Positions 3,632 through 19,992 of a DNA stretch of 64,000 bases are shown here, one piece after another. The DNA is from Novosphingobium sp. G106. GTDB lineage: Bacteria; Pseudomonadota; Alphaproteobacteria; Sphingomonadales; Sphingomonadaceae. The position numbers and the translations under genes are program-made. Location of the stretch: the NCBI RefSeq assembly GCF_019075875.1, contig NZ_JAHOOZ010000001.1:2046001-2110000 (forward strand), in the 5' to 3' direction. How positions within the stretch are numbered: position 1 is the first letter of the stretch; the number at the start of each line of letters is the position of its first letter. The notes under the pieces were generated by a model that had not been told where the DNA came from, ran no database searches, and saw only the letters and a program-made list of their open reading frames with translations.

Positions 3632-4522
3632 CTAGCCCTGTGCCATGGAGAGACCGATCACGGGCGCAGCGAACGAGGCGGATTGCGCGAGCGTGGTGAC
3701 CTGCAAGCCGGCAGCGCGGCAGCGCTCGACGAGGGCACTGGGAAGGCCCCTCCCATCTACCATCACACGCTTGAGCAGCGGCAACCGGCTGCCACATGCC
3801 TCGATCACCGAAACCAGTCCCGCAAGTTGCCCGCGATCGATCACGAGCGAGGTGATCCGAAGCTCGCCCAGTGCCCGTGCCAGACGCACGAAATCCGGAC
3901 GCTGGGGATTTTCGAGACCTATGCGATGGGGCGGAGGAACGACGTAGGTACCGCCGGCGATAATCGTCGCATAGAAACCCGCAGCCGTTTCCACGACGGA
4001 CCAAGCTGGCAACAAAGCGAGATGGCGGTCGAAATCCTGCCGCGGGCAGGAGTGCACCAGCGTAGCCGCGATTTCGACAAGCAGGTCCACGGATAGACTG
4101 ACCTGCTTGAACTTGCCCCCCCTGCTCGGGACACACAGGAGCCGCAGATGCCCTTGCAACGGGGCGATCGGCAGCGAATTGCGGAGCTGAATCTTGATCG
4201 GCGAATTCAGATAGGCTGCGTGCGCTCCGTTCCAGGCAACGGCGGCGGCCGTATCGCTGGCGCTCAATGTGGTCGGCATGATCAATTGGGAGACCTCTGC
4301 CTTGACGAGAGCGAGGTCGAGGATCGACCGGGCAAGGCCATTTCCGATTTGCACCGCAACCGGGCGACTCCGGCTGAATTGCGATGCAAGTTCTCCCGCA
4401 AAAGTTCGGACCAGCTCCGAGAACAAATGATAGTCGACGGGCAAATCGACTACCGTGTCCACCGCCATCCTGTGAGCGGATCTGGCGCCATGGCTATGTA
4501 TGGCATCAATTAGGCAGTTCAT
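3632..4522 (-). pseudogene. Degenerate, truncated acyl-CoA ligase-like (ANL family) protein
   Basis: A 296-residue product that follows the layout of an AMP-binding acyl-CoA ligase: an RPVAVQIGNG...LDLALVKAEV segment near residues 52-75, an ALLPAWSVVETAAGFYATIIAGGTYV-type segment near 170, and an LPLLKRVMVDGRGLP stretch near 250. The ATP-binding P-loop that should read TSGTTGxPKG is replaced by a CVPSRGGKFKQ stretch. The chain stops where the YGxxE motif should be, so the AMP-binding end and the whole C-terminal lid are missing. Normal family length is about 500 residues. It is therefore unlikely to be an active ligase. It could be a decaying gene or a repurposed acyl-binding protein. It is convergent with the glycosyltransferase and stands alone. 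Confidence 0.55.
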
Positions 4523-5028: not shown

Positions 5029-6705
5029 TCAACCCGAGAGCTTCTCAAATTCCAGTTCGGGGAACCCTTGGTCGGCGGATTGATCGAGCCTGTCGTAGTA
5101 ATTGTTGGCACCGCCGAAATAGATCAGCACGCGCGGCGGCTTGTCCTGCCGGTTGGCGCCCATCATCCAGGAATGGACCTTGCCGCCCTCGGCCATCAGC
5201 GTCTGTCCGTGGATATCAGCAGTGTGCGCCGTCCACTCCCGCTGCGCCTCGAGCCTCGGCTTGAAGACGTCGAAGCCTTCGCGTTCCATTTTCGCGATGC
5301 AGCGGCTGATCCAGATCACATTCTGCTCGATCGAGGTCGGCAGGTTGGCAAATGGCGCCTGCGGCCCGGTGACGATGAACATGTTGGGGAAATTGGCCAC
5401 GCAGACACCCATGATGCTCTCGGACACCGTTTTCCATGTTTCGGCCAGAGTCTTGCCGCTGCTGCCGCGGATCGGAAAGGCTTCGAGCGCGCCAGTATAG
5501 GCCTTGAACCCTGTCGCCAGGACGATGATGTCGAACTCATAGTGTTCGCGGGTCGTGCGGATACCGGTTTCCGTGATTTCGACCAGTGGCTCGCGGTCCT
5601 TGATGTCGACGAGACGCACATTGTCGCGGTTGAACGCTTCGAAGTAGCCGTGGTCGAGCGGGGGGCGCTTGGCGAACAAGGGATAGTCGTCGAAACTGGG
5701 CGAGAGCAGCTTCGCGATCTCGGGATCGTCCACGCGTTCCTTCATCTTCGCGACGATGAATTCCGACGCCATCCGGTTAGCCTCGGGGCTGGTCAGCAGG
5801 TCGTCGAAGGTTTCGAAGACCCAGCGGAAGCTGCCGGTCCAGTTTTCCTCGAAGATCCGCTGGCGTTCCTCGTGAGGCGTATCGACGGCGTTGCGACCGA
5901 CCGGACTGTCGAAGGCCATGCCGAACACGTGGTTGCGACATTTCGCTATGACCGCGTCGTAGTCGGCCTTGATCTCCTTTTCCCATTCCGGGGTCATCGG
6001 CTTCTGCATGGCCGGCAGGACGTAGTTCGGCGTGCGCTGGAACACCGTCACGCTGCCGGCGGTCTCCGCAACGACGGGCAACATCTGTACCGTGGTCGCG
6101 CCAGCGCCGATGATGCCGATCCGCTTGCCCGCATAGTCGAGCCCTTCCTGCGGCCAGCGGGACGAGTGGAATAGCGGGCCGCGGAAGCTATCCATGCCTT
6201 CGATCTTCGGGATCATCGGCTCCGAAATCATGCCCATGCCGCTGACGAAGTATTTGCAGGTATAGGTCTCACCACTGCGCGTGGTGATCTGCCAGCGCCC
6301 CTGGCCGTCGAGGTACCGCGCTTCGACGATCTCTGTATCGAGCTGGATATGCGGCCGCATCTGGCACTTGTCGGCGATGAAGTGGAAATAGCGGTGCGTC
6401 TCCTCCCAGCCCGGATAGCGCTTTGTCCAGGACCATTCCTGCAGCAGCTCCTTCGAGAAGGCGAGGCAGTAGTAGTAGCTCTCGCTGTCCGTGGCAGCAC
6501 CGGGATAGCGGTTCCACGTCCAGGTTCCGCCGATGTCCGAGGCCCTGTCGAAGATGCGAACCGAAAGCCCCAGTTCGCGCACGTAGTGGATCAGGGCGAG
6601 ACCCGCGAAACCGGCGCCGATGCCGATTACGTCGAAGTCTACCTCTGCCGCTGCTCCCTTCTGCAACGAAAGGGCCTCATCGGTCGAAGCGTTCGTAGTG
6701 GTCAT
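5029..6705 (-). CDS. Baeyer-Villiger flavin monooxygenase
   Basis: FAD- and NADPH-dependent class B monooxygenase of 558 residues that inserts one oxygen atom next to a ketone carbonyl, giving an ester or lactone. A first dinucleotide fold GAGFAG is at residues 30-35, and a GGTWTWNRYPG..D motif near 59-73 is typical of this class. The full Baeyer-Villiger fingerprint FRGPLFHSSRWP is at 174-185, and a second fold GAGATT is at 200-205. Overall it resembles cyclohexanone and phenylacetone monooxygenases. An upstream TTG exists at 6720, but the ATG at 6705 has a GGGAG ribosome site at proper spacing. It is the last gene of the leftward catabolic block, 96 bases after the CaiB-type gene. The ketone substrate is unknown; alicyclic or terpenoid ketones would fit the neighbourhood. 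Confidence 0.92.
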   Translation of the reverse strand: MTTTNASTDEALSLQKGAAAEVDFDVIGIGAGFAGLALIHYVRELGLSVRIFDRASDIGGTWTWNRYPGAATDSESYYYCLAFSKELLQEWSWTKRYPGWEETHRYFHFIADKCQMRPHIQLDTEIVEARYLDGQGRWQITTRSGETYTCKYFVSGMGMISEPMIPKIEGMDSFRGPLFHSSRWPQEGLDYAGKRIGIIGAGATTVQMLPVVAETAGSVTVFQRTPNYVLPAMQKPMTPEWEKEIKADYDAVIAKCRNHVFGMAFDSPVGRNAVDTPHEERQRIFEENWTGSFRWVFETFDDLLTSPEANRMASEFIVAKMKERVDDPEIAKLLSPSFDDYPLFAKRPPLDHGYFEAFNRDNVRLVDIKDREPLVEITETGIRTTREHYEFDIIVLATGFKAYTGALEAFPIRGSSGKTLAETWKTVSESIMGVCVANFPNMFIVTGPQAPFANLPTSIEQNVIWISRCIAKMEREGFDVFKPRLEAQREWTAHTADIHGQTLMAEGGKVHSWMMGANRQDKPPRVLIYFGGANNYYDRLDQSADQGFPELEFEKLSG

Positions 6706-6729
6706 CTGTCGTGCTCCCAAAACAACCCG

Positions 6730-6801: not shown

Positions 6802-7920
6802 TCAGCGCGGTTTGATCTCGGTATCGATTCCGATCTCTCGCAGGATCGCCTCGCGGTCGGAATCGCGTCGCCACATGATCGGCCTGACCGACTCTGTGTC
6901 TGCGAAGCGTGGCGCGGGAGAAGGCTGGATGTAGCCACTGTCATCGGCGTAGCTGCCCCGCGCCTTGTTGTGATCGTGAGCGATTGCCTCGTCCATCGTC
7001 AGAACTTCGCTGTAACAGCAGTCGCGGTCCTGCAACCTGGCGGTCCAGGCCTCTCGCGAGGCAGAAGCGAAGATCCCGGCCAGACGGGCCTTCATCACGA
7101 GCCACTTTGACGGGTCGTACTGATCGGCAAACGCCGGGTCATCGGCGAGTTCGAGCGCCTCGATCAGGCGGGAAAAGAACTTGGCTTCGATGGCACCGAT
7201 CGCGATGAAGGTTCCGTCAGCACAGGCATAGCAGGCGTAGAACGGCGCGCCGCCGTCGAGCAGGTTTTGCCCTCGCGGCCTATCCCACATGCCGTTGTGC
7301 TTCAGCGACCACATCCCCGCCATCATCACCGTGGCGCCGTCGGCCATGCTGCAGTCAATGATCCGGCCTCGGCCGCTTTGCCGCGCCGCGAGCAGAGCCG
7401 TGACGAACCCGAAAGCCAGCATCATGCCGCCGCCGCCATAGTCGCCGATCAGGTTCAGCGGCGGCGCCGGCGGCTGTCCTTCGGGACCGATCGCCGCGAG
7501 GCAACCGCTGAGCGAGATATAGTTCAGATCATGCCCGGCCTTGTCCGAAAGCGGCCCGTGCTGGCCCCAGCCGGTCATCCGCGCGTAGACCAGGCCTGGA
7601 TTACGCATCATCAGCATGTCCGGCCCCAGGCCCAGCCGTTCGGCGACACCGGGCCGGAAGCCTTCAATCAGGCCGTCGGCGGTTTCGACGAGCTTCGCGA
7701 CGATTTCGACGCTTTCCGGTTGCTTGAGGTCGAGCGTGATCGATCGTCGCGAACGCAGGAGGACGTCGCGCCCCTGGTCCTGCCCCAGCGGGTCGCTGCC
7801 CCCGGGCCGATCGATCCGGATCACCTCCGCACCATGGTCGGCGAGCATCATTCCACAGAATGGCGCAGGGCCGATCCCGGCCAGTTCGATTACGCGCACA
7901 CCTTCGAGCGGAGGACGCAT
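6802..7920 (-). CDS. CaiB/BaiF-family CoA-transferase, alpha-methylacyl-CoA racemase-like
   Basis: Class III CoA-transferase fold, 372 residues. The N-terminus (EGVRVIELAGIGPAPFCGM, then AEVIRIDRPGG) and the middle (TGWGQHGPLSDKAGHDLNY near 120, NLIGDYGGGG near 155) match alpha-methylacyl-CoA racemases, in which the His of GHDLNY and the Asp of GDYGG act as the acid-base pair. The likely reaction is inversion of a 2-methyl branched acyl-CoA so that a stereospecific acyl-CoA dehydrogenase can use it. CoA transfer is the alternative. The frame is open 33 codons further upstream, but the ATG at 7920 has an AAGGCGG site and begins the conserved domain. A 262-base gap with a palindromic operator separates it from the tetR gene. 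Confidence 0.85.
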   Translation of the reverse strand: MRPPLEGVRVIELAGIGPAPFCGMMLADHGAEVIRIDRPGGSDPLGQDQGRDVLLRSRRSITLDLKQPESVEIVAKLVETADGLIEGFRPGVAERLGLGPDMLMMRNPGLVYARMTGWGQHGPLSDKAGHDLNYISLSGCLAAIGPEGQPPAPPLNLIGDYGGGGMMLAFGFVTALLAARQSGRGRIIDCSMADGATVMMAGMWSLKHNGMWDRPRGQNLLDGGAPFYACYACADGTFIAIGAIEAKFFSRLIEALELADDPAFADQYDPSKWLVMKARLAGIFASASREAWTARLQDRDCCYSEVLTMDEAIAHDHNKARGSYADDSGYIQPSPAPRFADTESVRPIMWRRDSDREAILREIGIDTEIKPR

Positions 7921-8129
7921 CAAACCGCCTTCGACGCGATCCTCACCAGTCATGCGAAACCGCGGCGGGCGCGCGTGGTTGCATAGGCCAAGGCGCCCCT
8001 GCCGATTGGCCGGTCGCATCGATCACCCCATGCCGTCGACAGGCCGACGTCCATTTCGCTCTCCTCAGTTGCCTGGCCCATCCTGCTTCGAAGACGCCGC
8101 CCAAGACTCGCTGAGCGAGTTTTAACTTA

Positions 8130-8148
8130 TTTGCTTACGTCTAGCAAA
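8130..8148. promoter_or_regulatory. TetR-type operator O1
   Basis: Palindrome TTTGCT-TACGTCT-AGCAAA, 19 bp, in an AT-rich patch between tetR and the CaiB-type gene. It shares TTGCTTACGnCnAGCAA with the larger palindrome at 14611-14645 in the divergent promoter of the same locus. It is about 210 bases upstream of the CaiB start and could govern transcription of the CaiB and monooxygenase genes. Confidence 0.65.
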
Positions 8149-8182
8149 TATATTTACCGTCACCGCAATTGCTTGATTTTGC

Positions 8183-8827
8183 TTATTTTACCGACAGGGT
8201 ATCGAGCGCATTTCGGCGGTAATGCTGGAACACCGCATGCACGTCGATGCGTTCGGGATCGACCAGCCACTGATAGATCAGCCCGAAGATCAAAGAGGCG
8301 AACTCCACTGCAAAGCACTGGGGATCGATCGTGCCCCGGATCGTCCCCTCGCTGATACCTTCGCGCACCCAGCGTTCGGCATCGCGGCGGTATGCGGTGT
8401 GATTGCGCGCAAGACGCTGACGCACCTCATCGTGGCTCGACATCGATTCGAACCAGAGAATGTAGAGCGCCTTCATCTCGTGCGAGCGGTTGAGCAGGAA
8501 ATACTCGACCGCATCGAGCGCCGCGCTGAACGCAGGCAGCCCGGTGCTGCTACCGACGGCGTGCCGCAGTTCCTCGGCCCAACGACGATTGAAGTCGCGC
8601 ACCAGTTGGCTGAACAGGCCTTCCTTGGAGCCGAAGCGATTGCTGGCCAGCCCGCGACTGTAACCCGCCCTCTCCCCGACTTCGCGCAGTGTGGTGTTGT
8701 GTGTACCGTGTTCGGCAATCAGTTCCTTCGCCGCTTCGAGCATTCGCGCGTCGGACAGCGCGGTCCGTTCGGCCTGCGTCATGCGCTTGGAAGCCGGACT
8801 GCTCTGGACGGCAATATTCTGTTTCAT
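8183..8827 (-). CDS. TetR/AcrR-family transcriptional regulator
   Basis: A 214-residue repressor. An N-terminal helix-turn-helix lies at about residues 22-70 (LREVGERAGYSRGLASNRFGSKEGL, the characteristic recognition helix region). It is followed by an all-helical ligand-binding and dimerisation domain of divergent sequence ending near residue 205. It lies one base after the acyl-CoA ligase stop, so it belongs to the leftward operon. It is the natural candidate to bind the palindromes at 8130-8148 and 14611-14645. The inducer is probably an acyl-CoA or a pathway intermediate; this is inference from the surrounding genes. Confidence 0.9.
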   Translation of the reverse strand: MKQNIAVQSSPASKRMTQAERTALSDARMLEAAKELIAEHGTHNTTLREVGERAGYSRGLASNRFGSKEGLFSQLVRDFNRRWAEELRHAVGSSTGLPAFSAALDAVEYFLLNRSHEMKALYILWFESMSSHDEVRQRLARNHTAYRRDAERWVREGISEGTIRGTIDPQCFAVEFASLIFGLIYQWLVDPERIDVHAVFQHYRRNALDTLSVK

Positions 8828-8828
8828 G

Positions 8829-10475
8829 TCAGCATTCTTCTGCGGCGAACATCGGTTCGTGAACGATGGCTATATGTCCTGCCGCGACTTGCTCCCGCAA
8901 GCGCTTCTTGTCGATCTTGCCCACGCTCGTCTTGGGGAGCGCTGGAAGGATCGCCCAATATTCGGGCACCATGAACTTCGCCATGCGGCCGCGCAGCACG
9001 GCCCGCAGCGCCGCGAAATCGGGATCGTCGGCACCGTCCCAAGCAACGATAGCCAGTGGGCGCTCCTCCCAGCGCGGGTCGGACACCGCCACCACCGCCA
9101 CCTCGACCACTCCAGACAGTGCAGCGATCCCGTTCTCGAGGTCGACCGAAGATATCCATTCGCCGCCGGACTTGATCAGGTCTTTGATGCGATCGGTGAC
9201 CTGGACATAACCGAACGGATCGATGCTGCCGACATCTCCGGTTTCGAACCAGCCGTCGGCCGTGATCGCGTGCGGCGTGTCGTGGTAGCCGGCGGTCACC
9301 CAAGGCCCTCGGACCTGCAACTGGCCAATCGCCTCACCGTCCTCCGCAACCGGGGTGCCGCCGTCGTCGACGATGCGCACTTCCATGCCGGCGACGGGCC
9401 GACCGCTCTTTGCGCGCCAGGCAGCCTCATCCTCCGGCGCAGTTCCACGAGGCGGGCTGGATAGGACGCACATAGGGCTCGTTTCGGTCATACCCCAGCC
9501 CTGCAACACATCGATACCCCACACCTCACGCACGCGCTCGATCAGGTGGCGCGACACGGCCGAACCGCCCGAGATGATTGTGCGGAAGCTCGACATATCC
9601 ATCGGCTGTCGCAAATTTCGCGTCAGCAGGTCGTTGAGGATCGTAGGGACCGTCATCGTCAGCGTCGGGCGAGCCTGGGCGATCATCTCGGCAATCGGAT
9701 CGGGCTGGAGGAAGCGCGATGGCATCACCATGTCCGCCCCCGCGAGCCAGCACGAATAGGGCAGGCCCCAGGCGCTGGCGTGAAACATCGGCGGCATCAT
9801 CAGTACGCGGTCGGCATTGCAGATCCCGAATGCGTCGCTTCCCATTGACGCCAGGCTGTGGAGGAAGATCGATCGGTGACTGTAGGTCACGCCCTTGGGA
9901 TTGCCAGTGGTTCCCGAGGTGTAGCACATCGCCGCGGCCGACCGTTCGTCGAGTTCCGGCCAGTCCATCATCGGATCGGCGGCCGCCAGCAAGTCGGCCA
10001 GGGCATGGGGCACGACATTCATGCCGTCGAATGCCCCGCCCCCGTCGCCATCGGTAACGATGACGTGCCGCAGACCCGGCAAATCGCCTGCAAACGCGGC
10101 GAGAAGTTCGACGAGGCTGCTGTCGACGATAATCACCCGATCGTCGGCGTGATTGGCAATCCAGCCAATCTGGTCGGGATAAAGCCTCAGGTTCAGGGTG
10201 TGCAGCACGAAACCCGCCGCCGGCACCGCGAGATAGGCTTCGAGATGCGCATGACTGTTCCAGCACAGCGTGCCGACGCGGTCTCCGGGCGCAATGCCAA
10301 GCTCGTGCAGGGCGCTCGCCAGTCTCCGCGACCGGTCGGCGATGTCGGCGAAGGTCATCGCCCGCAGGCCCTGGCCGTCGAAGGTGGAGACGGTGCTGTC
10401 AGCGAACAACCGCGCACCACGCAGGAAGATCATCTGCGTCGTCAGCGGGAAGTCCATCATCGTCGCATCGATCAT
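8829..10475 (-). CDS. AMP-dependent acyl-CoA ligase (medium/long-chain type)
   Basis: Activates a carboxylic acid to its acyl-CoA using ATP. The 548-residue protein has all ANL motifs: the P-loop YTSGTTGNPKG near residue 180, GWGMTETSP near 330, WFETGDVG near 425, the hinge DRIKDLIKSGGEWIS near 440, and the catalytic lysine in the KTSVGKIDKK segment near 530. The open frame extends 133 codons upstream through the neighbouring kinase gene. The ATG at 10475 is preferred because it begins the family domain and overlaps the kinase stop as ATGA. It probably activates the acid set free after ring opening of the locus substrate, with the racemase and dehydrogenase acting afterwards. Confidence 0.92.
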   Translation of the reverse strand: MIDATMMDFPLTTQMIFLRGARLFADSTVSTFDGQGLRAMTFADIADRSRRLASALHELGIAPGDRVGTLCWNSHAHLEAYLAVPAAGFVLHTLNLRLYPDQIGWIANHADDRVIIVDSSLVELLAAFAGDLPGLRHVIVTDGDGGGAFDGMNVVPHALADLLAAADPMMDWPELDERSAAAMCYTSGTTGNPKGVTYSHRSIFLHSLASMGSDAFGICNADRVLMMPPMFHASAWGLPYSCWLAGADMVMPSRFLQPDPIAEMIAQARPTLTMTVPTILNDLLTRNLRQPMDMSSFRTIISGGSAVSRHLIERVREVWGIDVLQGWGMTETSPMCVLSSPPRGTAPEDEAAWRAKSGRPVAGMEVRIVDDGGTPVAEDGEAIGQLQVRGPWVTAGYHDTPHAITADGWFETGDVGSIDPFGYVQVTDRIKDLIKSGGEWISSVDLENGIAALSGVVEVAVVAVSDPRWEERPLAIVAWDGADDPDFAALRAVLRGRMAKFMVPEYWAILPALPKTSVGKIDKKRLREQVAAGHIAIVHEPMFAAEEC

Positions 10476-11497
10476 CGTGCGGCTTCCTCGACCAGCGTCG
10501 CGGCCTCGCGCAGCAGGTTCGGGACATCGTATTCGAGCCCGCGGGCATAGTCGCTCGAAACCTTGCCCTGGGCACAGAGCACCCAGGCGCCTTCGACGAT
10601 CGCGGCCAGTCGCCACGCGGAAAAGACGATATGCCAGGCGAGCGCCGCATGATCGCGCCCGCTCGCGAGTGACCAGATCTCCGCCATTTCGGCCCTTCCG
10701 GGCGCTTCGGAGTGGTTGGAGATCGCCTGCACGAAGGCGAAGCCCAGCGGCGCTGCCGGATCGCGTTTCCAGAAGAACAGGCAGAGGCCAAGGTCGACCA
10801 GAGGATCGCCGAGCGTCGCCATTTCCCAGTCGATCACAGCGCGTACTTCGGGCCGCTCCCGCCCGGCAAGGCAATTATCGAGATGGAAGTCGCAATGGAT
10901 GATGGCGGGGCTGCCTTCCGCAGGAAGCGTGGCGAGCAGCCATTCGCCGACCTCCGTCAGCAGCGGCAGGTCGCGCACGGCATTGTCCGCGCGCACTTTC
11001 AGCCAGCGCTCGATCTGCCGCCGCGCGAAGCCTGCAGGCTTGCCGAAGCCTTGCGCGTGCAACGGTGCGGTGTCGACCCGGTGGATCGTGCCGAGCGTTT
11101 CCATCAGCGAACGGCCTATCTCGGCAGTCGCATCGGCACCATAGGCATCGGGAAAGGCATCGGTGATGGTCACGCCATCGACGAATTCGGACAGGGCGAA
11201 CGGCTGGCCGATCACCTGCGGGTCATCGCAATAGGCGACCGGACGCGGCGCCGGGGCGTGATCGGCAAGCGCCGAGATCGCCGCGAATTCGCGCGAGATC
11301 CCCGCCGCAGCCTTGTCCGAAACGGTTTCCGTGGGCGGATGGCGCAACACGAAGCGCCCCTCTCGGGCGGTCACCAGGCGCGTGACGTTGGCATTGCCTC
11401 CAGCGAGCTGGCCGCCGATCCCGACATCGTGCAGGCCGGCATTGGCGCAGAGCCAGTCCGCGAGCCTGGTGTCGGCATCGGAGGTCACAACCCGCAC
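10472..11497 (-). CDS. APH-family phosphotransferase (ACAD10/11 kinase-domain type)
   Basis: A 341-residue protein of the aminoglycoside-phosphotransferase fold. It has the ATP-binding lobe (GGNANVTRLV near residue 33, RFVLRHPP near 48), the catalytic loop HCDFHLDN near 200 and the metal-binding IDWEMATLGDPLVDL segment near 222. This subgroup is typically found with acyl-CoA dehydrogenases and ligases and resembles the kinase domain of mammalian ACAD10/ACAD11, which phosphorylates hydroxyacyl-CoA so that it can be eliminated. That suggests a role on a hydroxylated acyl-CoA here rather than antibiotic resistance. The GTG start lies 13 bases inside the SDR gene. The stop overlaps the ligase start. 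Confidence 0.85.
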   Translation of the reverse strand: MRVVTSDADTRLADWLCANAGLHDVGIGGQLAGGNANVTRLVTAREGRFVLRHPPTETVSDKAAAGISREFAAISALADHAPAPRPVAYCDDPQVIGQPFALSEFVDGVTITDAFPDAYGADATAEIGRSLMETLGTIHRVDTAPLHAQGFGKPAGFARRQIERWLKVRADNAVRDLPLLTEVGEWLLATLPAEGSPAIIHCDFHLDNCLAGRERPEVRAVIDWEMATLGDPLVDLGLCLFFWKRDPAAPLGFAFVQAISNHSEAPGRAEMAEIWSLASGRDHAALAWHIVFSAWRLAAIVEGAWVLCAQGKVSSDYARGLEYDVPNLLREAATLVEEAAR

Positions 11498-12222
11498 ATC
11501 AGGCCCCCGTCGGTGAATACCGTCGAGCCGGTCATGTATGTCGATCCCGCGACCCAGAAGCAGGCCTCGGCGATTTCTTCCGCTTCGCCCATCCGTCCGA
11601 GCGGCACTTTCGCCACGATCGCTTCGCGCGCCTTCTTACTGATGCCACTGGTCATTTCGGTCATCACGAAGCCCGGCACCACGAGATTGACCCGGATGCC
11701 GCGGCGGGCGAGTTCGGCTGCGAGCACATTGGTCAAGCCAGCAAGCCCGGCCTTCGATGCGCCATAACAGCTATCACCGGAAAAGCCGCGAAAGCCGACT
11801 ACTGCGCCCACGTTCACGATTGAGCCGCCTTTCCCCATGTGCGGCAGCGCAGAGCGCACGACATGGAGCGGGCCGGAGAGGTTGGTAGCGAGCGTCGCGT
11901 CCCAATCCTCGATCGCGAAGCTTTCGACCCGGCCACCCCGATGCAGCCCGGCGCTGTTGACCAGCACGTCGATGCCGCCCCATTCCGCTGCCACCCGCGC
12001 GCAGCAGTTCTGCACCTGCGACGGGTCGCTGACATCCGCCGCGATGCCCATAGCCCGGTCGCCAAGCGCCAAGGCTTCCGCCGCAATCGAGTCGCTTCGC
12101 GCGACGAGGCAAACCCGGTCCCCCGCCGCCAGCGCGCGTTCGGCGATTGCTCGACCGATACCGCGCGAGGCGCCGGTCACCACCCAGCGGCGGGGCAGTG
12201 GCGGGAAGGCCGGCCGATCCAC
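11485..12222 (-). CDS. Short-chain dehydrogenase/reductase lacking the catalytic serine
   Basis: A 245-residue SDR with the NAD(P)-binding TGASRGIG at residues 17-24, NSAG near 88 and the YxxSK pair (YGASK near 152). The residue 13 positions before the Tyr, which is normally the catalytic Ser, is Ala (VNVGAVVGF in place of VNISSxxG). The enzyme may therefore have altered activity or use another residue. The start is GTG with an AGGAG site seven bases upstream. It follows the TonB receptor by nine bases and overlaps the kinase by 13. It probably oxidises or reduces a hydroxy or keto intermediate of the pathway. Confidence 0.88.
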   Translation of the reverse strand: MDRPAFPPLPRRWVVTGASRGIGRAIAERALAAGDRVCLVARSDSIAAEALALGDRAMGIAADVSDPSQVQNCCARVAAEWGGIDVLVNSAGLHRGGRVESFAIEDWDATLATNLSGPLHVVRSALPHMGKGGSIVNVGAVVGFRGFSGDSCYGASKAGLAGLTNVLAAELARRGIRVNLVVPGFVMTEMTSGISKKAREAIVAKVPLGRMGEAEEIAEACFWVAGSTYMTGSTVFTDGGLMCGL

Positions 12223-12231
12223 GAGATGCTC

Positions 12232-14517
12232 CTAGAAAGTCTGCGTGACCGCAACGCCATAGGTCCGGCGCGGCCGCGGTGCGGCGTAGCTCCAGACACC
12301 CTGCACGTCGTAGCCGATCGTCCAGCCCTTCTCGTTGGCCAGGTTCTGGCCGAACACGCTTACCGTCGTCTTGTTGAACCGCACGTTGGCCGAAGCATCG
12401 ACCAGATACTGGCCGCCGTTGCGAAGGTTCGGATTGTTGAGGAACGTGATCTCGTGCGGACCGATGTAATGGACATCCCCGGTAATCCAAGCCGAGGCAT
12501 TGTCCCCGATTTCGGTTTCATATGTCGCGCCGAAGCTCCACGTCCATTTCGGCGCACGGCGGATCTTGAGGAAGGTCGCGTCCACCGGCGTGCCGGTGCT
12601 GAAGATGTCGCCGAAGAATTTCTTATACTTGGCGTCGAGGTACCCTAGATTGCCGTTCACCTTCAGGTTCCGGGTGACCTGAGCCGTCAGATCGAACTCG
12701 ACGCCCTTGAAATCGGCTGACGACGCGTTGATCGTCCGGTTTTCGCGCCCCGTGGACGTTCCGGGCGCCGGCACGTCGAGATCCTGCTGCATGTCCTTGT
12801 ACTTCATCAGGAATGCCGAGCCGTTCAGACGTACGCGCCCGCCGGCGAACTCGGTCTTGAAACCGACCTCGTAGTTATCGAGCGTTTCCGGATTGTAGGG
12901 GATCGTCGCGGCGCCGATCGTCGATGGCCGGCCGTTGAAGCCACCGCCGCGATAGCCGCGTGACCACAGGGCATAGACCATGGCGTCATTGTTCAGTTCG
13001 TAGCGAAGCGAAATCCTGGGCGTGAACTTCGACCAGCTTGCCTTCACCGGCGTCGTCATGACGATCTGCCCGCCCGCAAGGCTGGGCTGGATCACCGCGA
13101 CAGGGTTTGCCTCCACCAGCGTTCCGTAGATAAAAATCGGCTTGTCGTTGACCAGGCTGGTCTTCTTGTCATGCGTATAGCGTGCACCGACGGTCAGAGT
13201 CAGGCCGTCGACCAGCTTGTAGTCGGCTTCCCCGTAGAACGCCCAGGACTTGTTGGTCTGCGTCACGTCCTGCGCACTGGTGAGCAACGGCGCACCAGCG
13301 AAGCCGATGTAGTTCTTCAGGTTGATCGTATAGCGCGAATCCCACAGGTAAGCGCCCAGCACGAAAGTCAGCGGGCCGTTCCCGCCCTTGGTCAGGCGTA
13401 GCTCGTTGGTCGTCTGACGCCAGCGGGCGGGACGATCGGTGTGGTACAAGGTCTGCGGTCCGGCATCGAAATCCTGATTGATCGCTTCGTTCGTCTTCAA
13501 CCATCCCAGGATGTAGTCGATCTGAAAATCGGAGCCGAGATCGTAGGTCGCCTTGGCGATTGCCATGTCGAGCTTGAACGTCGCGTTCTTGTCCAGCCGA
13601 CCGTTGCTCACGCTGACATAGCGGTCGCCGGATGTCGGCACGCCCGGGCTGGGCGAGCACTGCTGATATGCCGCGCAGAAAAGGTCGGTCGGGCGGTTGA
13701 CCGCGAGGAGCTGTGGCGGATCCTGCTTGGTCTTCTGGTGATCGTAGCTGACCTGGATGTGAAGATCGGTGGTCGGCTCGAACAGCAGCGCGCCGGAGAC
13801 CGCGTAGAATTCCGAACGCTGGCCCGGCTGGTTGTAGAAGCGGTTGTAGAAATAGCCGTCCGACTTTTCATAGGCTCCACTGACCTTGACCGCCAGATTG
13901 TCGGTCAGGCCCGTGCTGGCGACGGCCTCGGCTTTCCAGGTATCGAACTTGCCATAGGTGACGCGCGCCTTGCCCGTCAGGTCGTAGGTCGGCCGTGAGC
14001 GGGCAATGTTGATGACGCCACCTGTCGCGTTGCGGCCGAACAGCGTGCCTTGCGGTCCGCGCAGCACCTCGACGCGGTCGATGTCTATGGCTTTGAGCAG
14101 GCTGCCCGAGCTTTGCCCGATGTAGACGTCGTCGAACACGACGCCGACCGCCGGGTCGACCGACTTCTCCACGTCGGCAACGCCGATGCCACGGATGTAG
14201 ACGGCGGCGACGCCCCCCGGCCCCTGTTGGGTATCATCGATGACGACGTTCGGCGATGAATCGGCGAAGTCGCGGACGTCGGAATCGAAGCGCTTGGCCA
14301 AGTCGCCGGCCGAAAGAGCACTGATCGAAGCGGGAACATCCTGCATGCGTTCTACACGCTTGCGGGCGGTGACGACGATATCTTCAAGGCCGCCCTCGTT
14401 CCTTTCGGCGACCGGCGACGCGGCAGACTGTCCATAGGTGGGAACCGTCCAGGCGACAGCCGAACTGGCAACCGAGAGTGACAGGACAAACCGATTCCGG
14501 ATCATGCCTGCGAGCAT
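12232..14517 (-). CDS. TonB-dependent outer-membrane receptor
   Basis: A 761-residue receptor. Signal peptide residues 1-30 end near TYGQSAAS. A TonB-box/plug start follows (EDIVVTARKR near residue 46, then DVPASISALS and the plug motif with RVEVLRGPQGTLFGRNATGG near 130-150), then a 22-strand beta-barrel ending in the aromatic VAVTQTF terminus. Energy comes from TonB-ExbB-ExbD, encoded elsewhere. Sphingomonads use such receptors for hydrophobic carbon compounds as well as siderophores. Here the link to catabolic genes suggests uptake of the locus substrate. The ATG at 14517 with GGAGGGGAG upstream is preferred over a TTG at 14538. It is the first gene of the leftward operon. Confidence 0.93.
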   Translation of the reverse strand: MLAGMIRNRFVLSLSVASSAVAWTVPTYGQSAASPVAERNEGGLEDIVVTARKRVERMQDVPASISALSAGDLAKRFDSDVRDFADSSPNVVIDDTQQGPGGVAAVYIRGIGVADVEKSVDPAVGVVFDDVYIGQSSGSLLKAIDIDRVEVLRGPQGTLFGRNATGGVINIARSRPTYDLTGKARVTYGKFDTWKAEAVASTGLTDNLAVKVSGAYEKSDGYFYNRFYNQPGQRSEFYAVSGALLFEPTTDLHIQVSYDHQKTKQDPPQLLAVNRPTDLFCAAYQQCSPSPGVPTSGDRYVSVSNGRLDKNATFKLDMAIAKATYDLGSDFQIDYILGWLKTNEAINQDFDAGPQTLYHTDRPARWRQTTNELRLTKGGNGPLTFVLGAYLWDSRYTINLKNYIGFAGAPLLTSAQDVTQTNKSWAFYGEADYKLVDGLTLTVGARYTHDKKTSLVNDKPIFIYGTLVEANPVAVIQPSLAGGQIVMTTPVKASWSKFTPRISLRYELNNDAMVYALWSRGYRGGGFNGRPSTIGAATIPYNPETLDNYEVGFKTEFAGGRVRLNGSAFLMKYKDMQQDLDVPAPGTSTGRENRTINASSADFKGVEFDLTAQVTRNLKVNGNLGYLDAKYKKFFGDIFSTGTPVDATFLKIRRAPKWTWSFGATYETEIGDNASAWITGDVHYIGPHEITFLNNPNLRNGGQYLVDASANVRFNKTTVSVFGQNLANEKGWTIGYDVQGVWSYAAPRPRRTYGVAVTQTF

Positions 14518-14610
14518 CGAAATCTCCCCTCCATTCAAGCATCGCCGGCCCCTTGCCGGTCATTTTGCTTGCCGCACGCACGACGATTCCGTCGCACCGG
14601 CAAAGGCAGA

Positions 14611-14645
14611 TAATCATACTTGCTTACGACAAGCAAGTGTGATTA
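14611..14645. promoter_or_regulatory. TetR-type operator O2 in the divergent promoter
   Basis: A 35-bp palindrome centred at 14628. The inner arms ACTTGCTT / AAGCAAGT flank ACGAC, and the outer arms TAATCA / TGATTA are separated from them by one unpaired base on each side. It shares TTGCTTACGnCnAGCAA with the site at 8130-8148. It lies 94 bases from the TonB receptor start and 77 bases from the SDR start, so one bound dimer pair could repress both operons. Binding by the local TetR is inferred. Confidence 0.75.
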
Positions 14646-14721
14646 TCTCGACCCATAGGCACTGAAGCGGCGCAACCAAGCTGCCCGGCCTTTCAGCTGC
14701 GTCGATATCGGGAGAGCGTGA

Positions 14722-15474
14722 ATGAGTGGTCGATTGAATGGCAAGGTGGCGCTGATTTCTGGCGGCGCCAGCGGCCTGGGCGCTGCGCAAGCCACCCTGT
14801 ACGCCAGGGAAGGCGCGAAAGTCGTAATCGGCGACTTACAGGAATCGCTTGGTGCCGAAACGGTCGCGACGATTGCGGCCAAAGGCGGCGACGCCCGGTT
14901 CGTCCGGCTCGACGTGACCGATCCGGCGAGCTGGCACGCGGCAGTCGCTTTTGCAGCTTCCGAATTCGGAAAGCTCACAACGCTCGTCAACAACGCCGGC
15001 ATATTTCACCCTGGCGGCGTCGAAAACGAGACCGAGCAAGGCTGGGCGCAAATGATCGCGGTCAACCAGACCGGCGTATTCCTGGGCATGAAGGCTGCGG
15101 CGCCAGAGCTGCTCAAATCGGGCAATGCGGCGATCGTCAACATCTCCTCGCTATATGGTTTGATCGGCAGCGCCGATGCGATCGGCTATCATGCGTCGAA
15201 GGCGGCGGTTCGCGTGATGAGCAAGGGCACGGCTCTCGAATTCGCGAAGCGCGGCATCCGCGTGAACACGATCTTCCCCGGGCAGATCTGCACGCCGATC
15301 CTGGGCGACATCACGCCTGAACAGGATGCCGCGATCAAGGCCGCGATCCCGATGGGCGAAGTCGGCGACCCGATGGATATCGCCTACGGCTCGCTCTACC
15401 TCGCCTCGGACGAAGCGAAATACGTCTCCGGCGCCGAGCTTTGGATCGATGGCGGGTGGTACGCAGCATGCTGA
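14722..15474 (+). CDS. Classical short-chain dehydrogenase/reductase
   Basis: A 250-residue NAD(P)-dependent SDR. Cofactor motif SGGASGLG is near residue 13, the NNAG element near 90, and the full catalytic set Ser (NISSLYG), Tyr and Lys (YHASK) near 140-160; it ends with the IDGGW motif. It resembles 3-alpha/20-beta-hydroxysteroid and cyclohexanol-type dehydrogenases, so oxidation of a secondary alcohol to the ketone used by the Baeyer-Villiger enzyme is plausible. A GGGAG ribosome site precedes the ATG. It is the first gene of the rightward operon and is driven from the palindromic promoter. The substrate is unproven. Confidence 0.9.
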   Translation: MSGRLNGKVALISGGASGLGAAQATLYAREGAKVVIGDLQESLGAETVATIAAKGGDARFVRLDVTDPASWHAAVAFAASEFGKLTTLVNNAGIFHPGGVENETEQGWAQMIAVNQTGVFLGMKAAAPELLKSGNAAIVNISSLYGLIGSADAIGYHASKAAVRVMSKGTALEFAKRGIRVNTIFPGQICTPILGDITPEQDAAIKAAIPMGEVGDPMDIAYGSLYLASDEAKYVSGAELWIDGGWYAAC

Positions 15475-15499: not shown

Positions 15500-16807
15500 A
15501 TGAGCTGGGATTTTTCGACCGACCCTGAATTCCAGCAGTCGCTCGACTGGATGCGCGACTTCGTGCGCGAGGAGGTCGAGCCGCTCGATCTCGTGTTCCG
15601 CGGACCGGCCGATCCTTTCGACCCGAAAGGACCGGCGCGGCCCATCATCAAGCCGCTGCAGCAAGTGGTCAAGGACCGCGGGCTGTGGGCCTGCCACTTG
15701 GGTCCCGAGCTTGGCGGCAAAGGCTTCGGGCAAGTAAAGCTCGGGCTCATGAACGAGATCCTCGGCCGCAGCCGGTTTGCGCCGGTCGTGTTCGGCACCC
15801 AGGCCCCCGACACGGGCAATGCAGAAATCCTCGCCCGCTTCGGCAGCGAGGATCAGAAGGCCCGCTATCTCCAGCCTTTGCTGGATGGCGATATTGTCTC
15901 CTGTTACTCGATGACCGAGCCGCAGGCGGGCTCCGATCCCGGCGAATTCACCTGCCGCGCGCGGCGCGACGGCGACGAATGGGTGATCGACGGCGAAAAA
16001 TGGTTCGCAAGCCATGCCTGCGTTGCCGAATTTCTGATCGTGATGACGATCACCGATCCCGACGTCCCTGTGCACGAGGGATCGAGCATGATCATCGTGC
16101 CCAATCCCACGCCGGGAATGGAAATAGTGCGCAACACCGCGGTCGGCCCGAGGGACGAGATCGGATCCGGTGTCCACGGCTATATCCGTTTCACGGGATG
16201 CCGGGTGCCCGTGGCAAATACGCTCGGACCCGTCGGCGAAGGTTTCAAGGTCGCCCAGTCACGGCTGGGTGGCGGCCGCATACACCACGCGATGCGCACG
16301 GTGGGCATGTTGAACAAGGCGCTCGACATGATGTGCGAACGCGCCGTGAGCCGTCGCACCAAAGGAGAGCGGCTTGCCGACAAGCAGATGGTGCAAGAGA
16401 AGATCGCCGACAGCTACACGCAGATCCTGCAGTTCCGCCTTCATGTGCTCTACGCCGCGTGGCTGCTCGACCGGGACAAGGGCTACACCCATCCCGTGCG
16501 ACGTGAGATTTCGGCCGTGAAGGCGGCAATGCCGGGCGTGCTCAAGGATGTCGTCTATCGCGCGCTCCACCTGCACGGTTCGCTCGGCATGTCGAACGAA
16601 ACGCCGCTGATGGACATGTGGCAATACGTCCCCGAAATGGGCATCGTCGATGGGCCGACCGAGGTTCACAAGGTGTCGGTCGCGCGCGATCTGCTGCGCC
16701 ACGTCAAACCTGCAACGGGGATATTTCCCAGCTACCACGTGCCGACAGCGCGCGAAGCGGCGCTGCGCAAGTTCTCACCCTATCTCGACGGAAGGGACGC
16801 AGCGTGA
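15500..16807 (+). CDS. Acyl-CoA dehydrogenase family protein
   Basis: FAD-dependent dehydrogenase of 435 residues that introduces an alpha,beta double bond into an acyl-CoA. The N-terminal helical domain contains ELGGKGFGQ near residue 72. The FAD/substrate beta-domain has YSMTEPQAGSDP near 138 and GEKWFASHA near 168. The C-terminal domain has LHGSLGMSNETPL near 375 and a conserved VDGPTEVH near 400. The frame is open upstream into the SDR gene, but the ATG at 15500 begins the family domain and follows GGAGG. It lies 25 bases after the SDR stop and overlaps the next gene as GTGA. It likely acts on the product of the ligase and racemase. Confidence 0.92.
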   Translation: MSWDFSTDPEFQQSLDWMRDFVREEVEPLDLVFRGPADPFDPKGPARPIIKPLQQVVKDRGLWACHLGPELGGKGFGQVKLGLMNEILGRSRFAPVVFGTQAPDTGNAEILARFGSEDQKARYLQPLLDGDIVSCYSMTEPQAGSDPGEFTCRARRDGDEWVIDGEKWFASHACVAEFLIVMTITDPDVPVHEGSSMIIVPNPTPGMEIVRNTAVGPRDEIGSGVHGYIRFTGCRVPVANTLGPVGEGFKVAQSRLGGGRIHHAMRTVGMLNKALDMMCERAVSRRTKGERLADKQMVQEKIADSYTQILQFRLHVLYAAWLLDRDKGYTHPVRREISAVKAAMPGVLKDVVYRALHLHGSLGMSNETPLMDMWQYVPEMGIVDGPTEVHKVSVARDLLRHVKPATGIFPSYHVPTAREAALRKFSPYLDGRDAA

Positions 16808-17265
16808 CCGACGCCCTCCTCCAACGCATCGACCGGCTGGAAAGCCGGTTCGCCATGCTCGATCTCGTCAGCGACTATTGCCATGGCTTCGACAAGCGAG
16901 ATTTCGACCGCTTCCTTGCCATCTGGTGGGAGGATTGCGTCTGGGAGATCGGGCCGCCCTTCGGAACCTTCCACGGCCACGCCGGGATCAACGAGGCCGT
17001 GAAGGACATCCTCTGGCCCGCCTGGTTTCAGTCGACCCACTGCACCACCAACCTCCGCATAGACTTTTCGAGCGATGACCATGCCGGCGGCGTTTGCGAC
17101 GTCGATTGCATCGGTACGACCAGCGATGGCCAGGCGCAAACCGTCGCCGCAACCTACACGGACACCTTCGAACGTCGCGACGGCGTCTGGAAGATTGCGC
17201 GGCGGCACGTGAAGATGCACCATTTCAGCCCGCTCGTCGGGATCAAGCTCGAAGCGCCGCAATAG
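16804..17265 (+). CDS. NTF2/SnoaL-like domain protein
   Basis: A 153-residue single-domain protein of the nuclear-transport-factor-2 fold, cone-shaped alpha+beta, related to ring-hydroxylating dioxygenase small subunits, scytalone dehydratase and ketosteroid isomerase. Family-like features are the DYCHGFDKRDFDRFLAIWWEDCVW helix-strand region at residues 22-45 and the closing strand DGVWKIARRHV near 130. The catalytic Asp/His set cannot be assigned with confidence, so isomerase, dehydratase or hydratase activity are all possible. It begins with GTG overlapping the dehydrogenase stop, which shows tight coupling within the rightward catabolic operon. Confidence 0.8.
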   Translation: MTDALLQRIDRLESRFAMLDLVSDYCHGFDKRDFDRFLAIWWEDCVWEIGPPFGTFHGHAGINEAVKDILWPAWFQSTHCTTNLRIDFSSDDHAGGVCDVDCIGTTSDGQAQTVAATYTDTFERRDGVWKIARRHVKMHHFSPLVGIKLEAPQ

Positions 17266-17292: not shown

Positions 17293-18096
17293 ATGGCCTA
17301 TCTCGATACGGGCCGGGGCCGAGTCTACTACGAGCATCATGCCGGGGAGAAGCTGCCCGTCCTGCTGATCCACGCCTGGGCGATGAGCACGCGGGTATGG
17401 GATTCGACGCTTTCGGCCCTTCAGGAAGCCGGGCATTCGGTTGTCGCCTTCGATCACCGTGGATGCAGCCAGTCGGACAAGGATTTCGACGATTTCTCGA
17501 TCGGCGCCGTCGCAGGTGATGCCGTCGCGATCTGCGATGGGCTGGGGCTCGAGAAAGTGGCGGTGAACGGCTGGTCTCTTGGCGGCGCCGTCGCGACCGA
17601 AGTCGCGCACCGGATCGGCGGGCGGTGTGCGGGGCTGATCCTCACCTGCGGCGCGAGCCCGCGCTATACCCAGGCGGAAGGTTTCCCCCACGGCGGCACC
17701 GCCGACGACGTACGGGCCACGGTCGCCGCGATCCGGCCGGATCGCGCCAGCTTCTTCCACGGCATCTCCCGTGCCGTCTGCGCCCGGCCCGTCGGCGAGG
17801 CAGTGCTCGATTGGATGTGGTCGGTGTTCATGGAGGCCGCGCCCGGCGCCGACCGCACCCTTGGCGAACTCGCCACGATCGACCAGCGCGACATTCTGGC
17901 CGCGCTCGACGTGCCGCTGCTGTCGATTGTCGGCAGCGACGACGTTTTCACACCGCCGGGCATCGGCGAATTCGCCGCGCAAATTGCCAAGCGCCCCCGC
18001 CTGGTCCGTTTCGAAGATTGCGGCCACGGCCCCATGTTCGAGGAATATGACCGCTACTGCGCCGAATTGCTCGGCTTTCTCGCCAGACTGGAGTGA
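17293..18096 (+). CDS. Alpha/beta hydrolase
   Basis: A 267-residue serine hydrolase of the alpha/beta fold. The oxyanion-hole strand IHAWAM is near residue 27. The nucleophile elbow GWSLGG (Ser near 94) is followed by the acid in VGSDDVF near 215 and the catalytic His in CGHGPMF near 243. This is a normal length and complete triad. In a locus with a Baeyer-Villiger monooxygenase the expected job is hydrolysis of the ester or lactone product, but esters of the primary substrate are also possible. It starts 28 bases after the NTF2-like gene and its stop is followed within six bases by the next start. Confidence 0.9.
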   Translation: MAYLDTGRGRVYYEHHAGEKLPVLLIHAWAMSTRVWDSTLSALQEAGHSVVAFDHRGCSQSDKDFDDFSIGAVAGDAVAICDGLGLEKVAVNGWSLGGAVATEVAHRIGGRCAGLILTCGASPRYTQAEGFPHGGTADDVRATVAAIRPDRASFFHGISRAVCARPVGEAVLDWMWSVFMEAAPGADRTLGELATIDQRDILAALDVPLLSIVGSDDVFTPPGIGEFAAQIAKRPRLVRFEDCGHGPMFEEYDRYCAELLGFLARLE

Positions 18097-18101
18097 GTGC
18101 G

Positions 18102-19100
18102 ATGAGCGTGAACTTCGGGCTGTGGTACGATTTCCGCAACCCGCCCCAGTGGCGCCAGCCGTTCGGCCGGATGTACGCCGACTATCTCGACCAGATCGTG
18201 CGCGCCGAGGCGCTGGGATTCGATTCCGTCTGGCTCACCGAACACCATTTCTGCGAGGACGGTTACACCCCCTCACCACTCGTTATCAGCGGCGCTATCG
18301 GAGCCCGCACGACGCGCATGCGCATCGGCACGAACCTCATCGTCTTGCCCCTGCACGATCCGGTGCGTATCGCAGAGGACGCCGCGACAGTGTCCCTGCT
18401 GACCGGCGGACGCTTCGATCTTGGTGTCGGCATCGGTTACAAACAGGGCGAGTTCGAGGCCTTCGGGCGCGAATTGAAGCATCGCCCCAGCCTGATCGAA
18501 GACTCCGTGGAGATCATCCGGCGCGGATGGCGCGGCGAGAATGTGAACTATTCGGGCAAACTCCATTCTCTCGGCAACCTGCCGATCACCCCGGTGCCGG
18601 AAAGCCCGCCCGCGTTGCTGATCGGCGGAATGGCCGAACCAGCGATCGACCGCGCGGCGCGTATCGGCGATGGTTTCCTGTCGACTGGCGGAATCGGCCT
18701 CGACACCTATGTCGAGGCGCTCGAACGGCAGGGCAAGGATCCGGGCCAAGGCCGCATCGCCCTCGGTTGCTGGGCGCTGATTTCCGACGACCCGAAACTG
18801 GAGGCCGAACGCGCAGGGCCCCACGCTCTCTACCAGGCGAATGAATATATTCGGTGGGGTGCGTTCGGCCCGCCCGATCAGGTACCCCTGTTCCCCGATG
18901 CCGCCACCGCGCTCGATCAGGGATTGTACGAAGTTTGGACGCCCGACGAGGCCATCGCCAAGCTGTCCGCACTGATCGGAAAATACCCTCAGATCGTCGA
19001 CATTCATTTCTGGGCACAGTTGCCCGGCGAACCGGTCTCGGCAGGTGAGCGCCGGATCGAGTGCCTCGCCGGAAAGGTCCTCCCGCAGCTGAGGACCTGA
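18102..19100 (+). CDS. LLM-class flavin-dependent monooxygenase (luciferase-like)
   Basis: A 332-residue TIM-barrel flavoprotein of the bacterial luciferase superfamily that uses reduced FMN (or F420) from a partner reductase. Typical elements are GFDSVWLTEHHF near residue 32, the RIGTNLIVLPLHDPVRIAEDAA-type segment near 70-92 and FDLGVGIGYKQGEF near 107-120. An earlier GTG at 18093 overlaps the hydrolase stop. The ATG at 18102 has GGAG eight bases upstream and is preferred. It closes the rightward operon. It could start the pathway by oxygenating the substrate or act as a second oxygenase. No flavin reductase is encoded nearby. Confidence 0.88.
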   Translation: MSVNFGLWYDFRNPPQWRQPFGRMYADYLDQIVRAEALGFDSVWLTEHHFCEDGYTPSPLVISGAIGARTTRMRIGTNLIVLPLHDPVRIAEDAATVSLLTGGRFDLGVGIGYKQGEFEAFGRELKHRPSLIEDSVEIIRRGWRGENVNYSGKLHSLGNLPITPVPESPPALLIGGMAEPAIDRAARIGDGFLSTGGIGLDTYVEALERQGKDPGQGRIALGCWALISDDPKLEAERAGPHALYQANEYIRWGAFGPPDQVPLFPDAATALDQGLYEVWTPDEAIAKLSALIGKYPQIVDIHFWAQLPGEPVSAGERRIECLAGKVLPQLRT

Positions 19101-19581: not shown

Positions 19582-19992
19582 CTATTCCCCGATGCGGGCG
19601 AGCAGATCGGAAAGCATGGGGCGCAGCCGGCGAATCTCTTCGCGGTGGGTGACGCTGAGCTGGGCCAGAAGGCTGTCCGCCTTGTCCGTAGGGACCACCT
19701 GCGCCTGTCGGCGGTCACTTGGGGACACCTGCCGCTCCAGCAGGCCAAGTCCTTCGAGACGGTCGACGAGCCCGCTGGCGCTGTGGGGCTTCAGCATCAG
19801 CCATTCGGCGATGTTGCCGATCGTCGCTTTGTTCGGTTGCGCGGCCTTTATCGCCAGCAGCGCCTGGTGCTGCTGCGGTGTCAGGCCGACCTCGGACGCG
19901 CGTGCCTCGCTGAAGGCCAGGAACCTGCGCAGCGTGCCGCGAAATTCCGCCAGCACGCGGTAGTCGGCATCGTTCAGGGCATCTTTCGTCAT
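19582..19992 (-). CDS. MarR-family transcriptional regulator
   Basis: A 136-residue winged-helix repressor. Helices at residues 35-50 (LTPQQHQALLAIKAA) precede the DNA-recognition region IAEWLMLKPHSASGLVDRLEGLGLL near 60-85. The wing, with the typical SPSDRRQAQV, is near 90-100. It is divergent from the ClC channel gene and two matching palindromes flank it, so it probably regulates itself, the channel and the small membrane gene. The ligand is unknown. In this family, phenolic acids or oxidation are common signals. Confidence 0.9.
   Translation of the reverse strand: MTKDALNDADYRVLAEFRGTLRRFLAFSEARASEVGLTPQQHQALLAIKAAQPNKATIGNIAEWLMLKPHSASGLVDRLEGLGLLERQVSPSDRRQAQVVPTDKADSLLAQLSVTHREEIRRLRPMLSDLLARIGE

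Follow-up and report, generated by a model that had tools for sequence, protein, structure and literature searches.

Two predicted operators of a TetR-family regulator and a putative twelve-gene ketone regulon in Novosphingobium sp. G106

The stretch analysed here, called the window, is 64,000 nucleotides of the Novosphingobium sp. G106 genome (contig NZ_JAHOOZ010000001.1, positions 2,046,001 to 2,110,000). It carries a gene for a TetR-family regulator among enzyme and uptake genes, and two matching palindromic sites, which we call O1 and O2 (Table 1). Reading down the minus strand from 14517, the order is TonB receptor, SDR, kinase, ligase, tetR, O2, CaiB and Baeyer-Villiger monooxygenase (BVMO). 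Reading up the plus strand from 14722, it is SDR, acyl-CoA dehydrogenase (ACAD), SnoaL-like protein, alpha/beta-hydrolase and luciferase-like monooxygenase. These twelve genes are presumed, because of gene spacing and overlaps, to form three transcription units. O1 precedes the regulator's own unit, TonB-SDR-kinase-ligase-tetR, as far as its co-transcription can be inferred, and since tetR is the last gene of that unit, O1 would also control tetR. We consider it likely that O1 and O2 are the operators through which this TetR controls the twelve local genes, and that those genes would encode a pathway for a ketone. The comparisons below support the operator, its tie to this TetR, the gene set and the catalytic residues; from them we infer binding, repression, the inducer, the operon limits, the order of steps and the substrate.

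Table 1. Genes and sites of the predicted regulon (positions in the window)
Feature	Coordinates	Strand	Remarks
Operator O1, ACTTGCTTACGACAAGCAAGT	14618..14638	.	within 39-bp palindrome 14609-14647, TonB|SDR divergent gap
Operator O2, ATTTGCTTACGTCTAGCAAAT	8129..8149	.	between tetR end and CaiB
TetR-family regulator	8183..8827	-	last gene of TonB operon; TetR_N (PF00440) 1.5e-14
Acyl-CoA ligase (AMP-binding)	8829..10460	-	start chosen by homology
APH-fold kinase, like ACAD11 kinase domain	10472..11497	-	
SDR dehydrogenase (TonB unit)	11485..12222	-	
TonB-dependent receptor	12232..14517	-	open reading frame (ORF) extends to 14538; ATG 14517 preceded by GGAGGGGA
SDR dehydrogenase, heads divergent operon	14722..15474	+	
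ACAD11/LvaC-type ACAD	15500..16807	+	ORF from 15326; start 15500 inferred
SnoaL-like protein	16804..17265	+	SnoaL_4 3.3e-22; start inferred
Alpha/beta-hydrolase	17293..18096	+	
Luciferase-like monooxygenase	18093..19100	+	
CaiB-family protein, closest to alpha-methylacyl-CoA racemases	6802..8019	-	start probably ATG 7920
Type I BVMO	5029..6720	-	

The 17-letter pattern TTGCTTACGNCNAGCAA occurs exactly at 8131-8147 and 14620-14636. The third match in the window, at 14565-14581, has three mismatches, and shuffles average 0.86 matches at three mismatches or fewer. The original prediction, made from the letters of the window, had described a 19-bp motif common to both places. Both occurrences are exact, but the shared pattern is 17 letters long; the 19-bp stretch at 8130-8148 is TTTGCTTACGTCTAGCAAA, in which six of nine position pairs are complementary. 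A 35-bp palindrome had also been described at 14611-14645. The palindrome is there, but it extends to 39 bp with 16 of 19 pairs, the shorter span alone having 14 of 17. Its outer arms, GATAATCA (14609-14617) and TGATTATC (14639-14647), are not seen in related genomes. The placement of the sites among the genes was confirmed: one lies past tetR, ahead of CaiB, and the other in the gap that separates the TonB gene from the divergent SDR gene.

Orthologues of the TetR were sought in 61 relatives, in 397 genomes of the family sampled evenly from a larger set (E<=1e-25 was reached in 12, its own included) and in 195 genomes of the same genus (14 with the TetR, again with its own). They are present in 20 other Sphingomonadaceae genomes at 58-73% identity, making 21 carrier genomes in all; this set omits four carriers of a diverged TetR (G317, G176, G116 and G478, 34-51% identical). 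A wider search gave 1182 matches, and among the best 120 the close ones are named Novosphingobium sp. Loci long enough to show it preserve the order TonB-SDR-kinase-ligase-tetR, divergent from SDR-ACAD; the exception is G281 (L059), where no match to the TonB gene was found at the expected place. In alignment, the predicted DNA-contact region of the regulator, GYSRGLASNRFGSKE, shows no more than minor changes across the TetRs with an operator at their locus.

What the related genomes keep of the sites is AYTTGCT-N7-AGCAART rather than TTGCTTACG, which had been proposed as the shared core. Taken literally, that core over-specifies the motif, because conservation is only weak in the spacer and is missing from the outer arms of the long palindrome, and it was rejected as the operator on these grounds. 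An alignment of 32 sites has TTG at -8 to -6, T at -4, A at +4, AA at +7/+8 and T at +10 in all 32, an invariance that is partly due to selection since the sites were picked by best match. The remaining half-site positions are kept in 20 to 31 of the sites, and the spacer is weaker overall, yet has C at +2 in 25.

Each locus was scored by its best match to the 14 defined positions of this pattern, with 200 mononucleotide shuffles per region. The gap scored was the divergent TonB|SDR gap, or the SDR|SDR gap in G281. Among 20 gaps, O1 scored 14/14 in eight, 13/14 in nine and 12/14 in three, and in 19 of them none of the 200 shuffles matched the score. In the remaining genome, G597, locus L080 was scored for the region after tetR only; its gap sits on another contig (L093) and has a one-mismatch site. 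O1 is found in the divergent gap of 21 out of 21 genomes with an orthologous TetR. In the region after tetR, taken as 300 bases at nine loci without a recognised next gene, O2 is clear in 10 of the 21 loci, scoring 13 or 14 of 14 with no shuffle of 200 as good. It stands ahead of CaiB-BVMO in the window, G133 and G102, ahead of CaiB in G028, ahead of a luciferase-like monooxygenase and CaiB in G036, G148, G178 and G095, and ahead of a luciferase-like monooxygenase in G368 and G261. Pfam confirmed the luciferase-like identity in L057 and L061. Six loci (L041, L056, L057, L058, L060 and L061) have such a gene behind O2 where the window has CaiB-BVMO, as if the type of oxygenase had been swapped under the same control.

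By searching whole genomes, it is possible to judge how specific the pattern is to this cluster. In its own genome (7,227,927 bases), the literal pattern has two matches without mismatch, none listed at one mismatch and five at two. The bare core TTGCTN7AGCAA occurs at eight places, and its reversed control at five, so the bare core says little by itself. The extended pattern AYTTGCTN7AGCAART is exact solely at the two cluster sites; at one mismatch or fewer it has four places, two of them outside the cluster, and the reversed control has six. One of these two was inspected and falls inside a mechanical 222-codon ORF (L005). In the first 12 carrier genomes, all 13 exact matches genome-wide are within the cluster, and G133, G281 and G261 have none. 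A further 11 genomes, nine carriers plus G317 and G176, gave two exact matches, one in the G591 cluster and one in G317. For the 21 carriers together, the tally is 14 exact matches, all 14 in this cluster. Many copies at unrelated genes, named in the original prediction as evidence against the regulon, were looked for in the genome search and did not appear. Nor did the exact pattern occur in any of 30 genomes of the genus that lack this TetR, together about 128 Mb when sizes are rounded (reversed control, five); they were hand-picked at >=98% completeness as a subset of those available. Distant regulon members were not detected. Beyond the cluster, one-mismatch places turn up about as seldom as hits of the control, so the search speaks neither for nor against such members. 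The proposal that one TetR acts at two operators on about 12 genes draws its support from the presence of O1 in all 21 carriers and the absence of the exact pattern from the 30 non-carriers; the second site, however, was recovered in 10 of 21.

The association follows the regulator beyond this gene arrangement. TetR homologues at roughly 30-36% identity occur in some genomes (e.g., G009, G015 and G033) with zero exact operators, and at L066, L088 and L040, with TetRs 31-39% identical, no operator was found near tetR at one core mismatch or fewer. The diverged TetRs of G176 and G317 are 49-52% identical and have the motif nearby, in two other gene contexts. Locus L065 (G176:C173, 1935-6527) has an exact operator core between tetR and a kinase gene, and locus L089 (G317:C152, 9664-13506) has the motif ahead of a BVMO. 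The exact match in G317 stands directly before a run of BVMO, ACAD and SDR genes, at about 19 kb from the gene of the TetR, which is 52% identical. The ACADs of both loci have the full ACAD11-type motif, with GRLGPGRIHHCMR and ADGPDEVH, and the one in L065 adjoins the kinase gene. This suggests a wider clade of regulators tied to ACAD11-type chemistry.

The same observations bear on what else the palindromes might be. They could be operators of another regulator, with tetR there incidentally. The sequence by itself is silent on which protein binds, and a MarR-family gene (19582-19992, minus strand) lies beyond the last gene of the SDR unit, some 5 kb away from O1. However, tblastn at E 1e-5 gave no match to this MarR in those orthologous loci where the operator is kept, the lack of exact sites in all 30 non-carriers argues against a global factor, and the motif recurs near diverged TetRs in other contexts. 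We regard control by MarR or a global factor as improbable. A role as hairpins in RNA or DNA, such as a terminator after tetR, is still less probable. O2 is indeed only 34-54 bp past the tetR stop, the O1 palindrome is long, and there is a terminator-like element near each site (8103-8123 and 14544-14560, both on the plus strand). However, neither element overlaps a palindrome, and one set of letters is shared by a divergent promoter gap and the region after tetR. It is also the half-site letters themselves that are conserved and not the outer arms of O1, which suits protein contact. A chance match of two sites might be entertained on the ground that the bare core is barely commoner than its control in its own genome, but conservation of positions and letters in 21 related genomes, with absence from the 30 non-carriers, leaves it hardly credible.

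The CaiB-family protein matches racemases at about 1e-104 and CoA-transferases at 7.4e-34 or weaker. The catalytic residues of the racemase MCR, which we take to be His126, Asp156 and Glu241, align identically with His, Asp and Glu of this protein by hand count. The nearest relatives of the BVMO are cyclohexanone and phenylacetone monooxygenases. On the 3' side of the BVMO gene, a 296-codon ORF (3632-4522, minus strand) has a sub-threshold AMP-binding match (3.5e-5) and is possibly a ligase relic. The kinase matches the ACAD11 kinase domain at 4.1e-31, its top match being another deposited APH protein at 2.3e-40. The ACAD has a match of 2.8e-71 to the dehydrogenase domain of ACAD11, its top match being a putative bacterial ACAD at 5.7e-72. 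Two acyl-CoA dehydrogenase genes that lie side by side at 22041-24442 (minus strand), possibly for a heteromeric pair, are outside the described regulon. The residues of ACAD11 named in PMC12440821 are D220 and N225 in the kinase and R626, H634, R637 and D753 in the ACAD. In alignment, the window kinase has equivalents of D220 and N225, and the ACAD has equivalents of R626, R631, H634, R637 and D753. HxDxxxxN is present in 21 of 21 kinases examined and RLGxGRxHHxMR in 20 of 20 ACADs; the Asp is present in 19 of these, and the last one is truncated where its contig ends. Judged by alignment, the published residues of ACAD11 phosphorylation-elimination are kept in a kinase and an ACAD encoded in divergent operons under one predicted operator. 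PMC11342911 reports that bacterial kinase and ACAD relatives substitute for ACAD10 domains.

From these assignments, the twelve genes probably serve to take up and degrade a ketone, branched or cyclic, and would stay repressed until TetR binds an intermediate. At O1, the repressor would shut off TonB-SDR-kinase-ligase-tetR, and so its own gene, as well as the SDR-ACAD-SnoaL-hydrolase-luciferase-like operon; at O2, it would shut off the racemase-like CaiB and the BVMO. Derepression would come probably from a CoA thioester or other intermediate of the pathway. The ketone would enter via the TonB receptor, and the BVMO would convert it by oxygenation into an ester or lactone, which the hydrolase would open to a hydroxy acid. 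The ligase would then form the CoA thioester of the hydroxy acid, the kinase would phosphorylate the hydroxyl of the hydroxyacyl-CoA, and the ACAD11-type dehydrogenase would eliminate the phosphate to give a 2-enoyl-CoA. From there, the SDRs and the racemase-like protein may lead into beta-oxidation. The presence of both a racemase-like CaiB and a BVMO prompts our guess that the ketone is branched or cyclic and isoprenoid-like.

The regulator and operators could be correctly assigned while the kinase and ACAD act separately on some other substrate, with no phosphorylation-elimination of a hydroxyacyl-CoA. APH-fold kinases are diverse, the residue comparison was made with ACAD11, and the ACAD motif is HAMR in place of HCMR. 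The conserved equivalents of the phosphate-contacting residues and the catalytic Asp speak for coupled chemistry, as do the two diverged-TetR loci with their ACAD11-type ACADs and, in L065, the adjoining kinase. Separate action seems to us unlikely, though it deserves more weight than any of the alternatives for the palindromes.

Several observations weigh against a regulon of one TetR acting at O1 and O2 on a ketone pathway. Binding and expression are predicted only, and autoregulation via O1 requires transcription across the four genes upstream of tetR. A sigma-70-like promoter scan found nothing at O1 or O2, and a search by eye gave no convincing -35/-10 pair overlapping the operators; with the scans empty at both sites, promoter blocking by TetR remains a proposal. 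O1 of G148 (L056) is degenerate at 12/14, a score equalled by 2 of 200 shuffles. In 11 of the 21 loci, O2 is absent or degenerate, scoring 8-10 of 14 and equalled by 13-200 of 200 shuffles. In favor of the regulon, eight of these 11 genomes (G480, G500, G598, G468, G496, G582, G597 and G591) have a BVMO 71-80% identical to that of the window on the SDR side, on the same strand and about 1 kb past the hydrolase, where O1 might serve it. The contigs of G556 and G594 end too early to show whether a BVMO follows, and G281 has a degenerate palindrome (10/14) ahead of CaiB-BVMO. In G480, CaiB follows tetR, yet the site scores only 10/14. Elsewhere, the luciferase-like genes that follow O2 share only 24-30% identity with the one in the window, and the carrier genomes are related, so the counts are not independent. 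On the side of the chemistry, the ACAD of the window reads HAMR where ACAD11 reads HCMR; HAMR is found in 18 cluster ACADs (the window and 17 others), and HCMR is present in the ACADs of L065 and L089. The substrate of the proposed pathway is a guess.

With these points taken into account, we still favor O1 and O2 as operators of this TetR, and a broader proposal can be offered tentatively, at somewhat less than an even chance. The TetR may represent an undescribed Sphingomonadaceae clade dedicated to BVMO-fed hydroxyacyl-CoA phosphorylation-elimination, with the operator retained beside its regulator in three or more arrangements of the genes. In the principal arrangement, one palindrome would link the two members of an ACAD10/11-like enzyme pair encoded in divergent operons, and the TetR would respond to a branched hydroxy acid, isoprenoid- or terpenoid-like, in the form of its CoA thioester. 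If that is true, the TetR of this clade would mark a degradation route not yet described. The locus offers a sharply defined and testable operator-regulator pair for catabolic genes, with exact copies in none of the non-carriers examined. It would also connect, in environmental bacteria, the recently described phosphate elimination of the ACAD10/11 type to Baeyer-Villiger oxidation and to uptake through TonB, and the TetR is a possible biosensor once its inducer is known.

The regulatory mode is ordinary for TetR repressors; it is the regulator-operator pair and the gene combination that appear undescribed. Searches of the open-licence PMC literature, which excludes subscription papers, showed no description of this operator or regulon among the papers listed. 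The original prediction recognised no described system with this gene set and operator, yet the center of the gene set resembles a known kinase-dehydrogenase pair, LvaA-LvaC or ACAD10-ACAD11. KstR and KstR2 of mycobacterial sterol catabolism are likewise TetR repressors of catabolic clusters. Their inducers are of the steroid or CoA-thioester type, their operator differs from O1 and O2, their clusters hold sterol genes, and KstR2 matches the window TetR weakly (E 1.6e-5). The lva genes are controlled by LvaR, an activator, unlike the TetR of the window; the work on levulinic acid is reportedly that of Rand et al. 2017. LvaA-LvaC (Pseudomonas putida, levulinic acid) and mammalian ACAD10/ACAD11 (PMC12440821 and PMC11342911) likewise combine an APH-fold kinase with an ACAD, whose ACAD11 residues have equivalents here, and CoA ligase and SDR genes stand alongside in the same way. 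The window differs in splitting kinase and ACAD over two divergent operons, in adding a TonB receptor, BVMO, racemase-like CaiB and hydrolase, and in having HAMR for HCMR. The closest regulatory analogue found is EdcR of Caenibius tardaugens, a TetR-like repressor that controls the edc operons for estradiol (PMC8700777), compared here by its description and operator letters and not by protein sequence. Its proposed operator, TnnCnnTACnAnTnGTAnnGnnA, differs by eye from the letters of O1 and O2, and its enzymes are those of estradiol degradation. EdcR shares with the present locus a related bacterial host, divergent catabolic operons, promoter palindromes proposed as operators and a TonB-type uptake gene.

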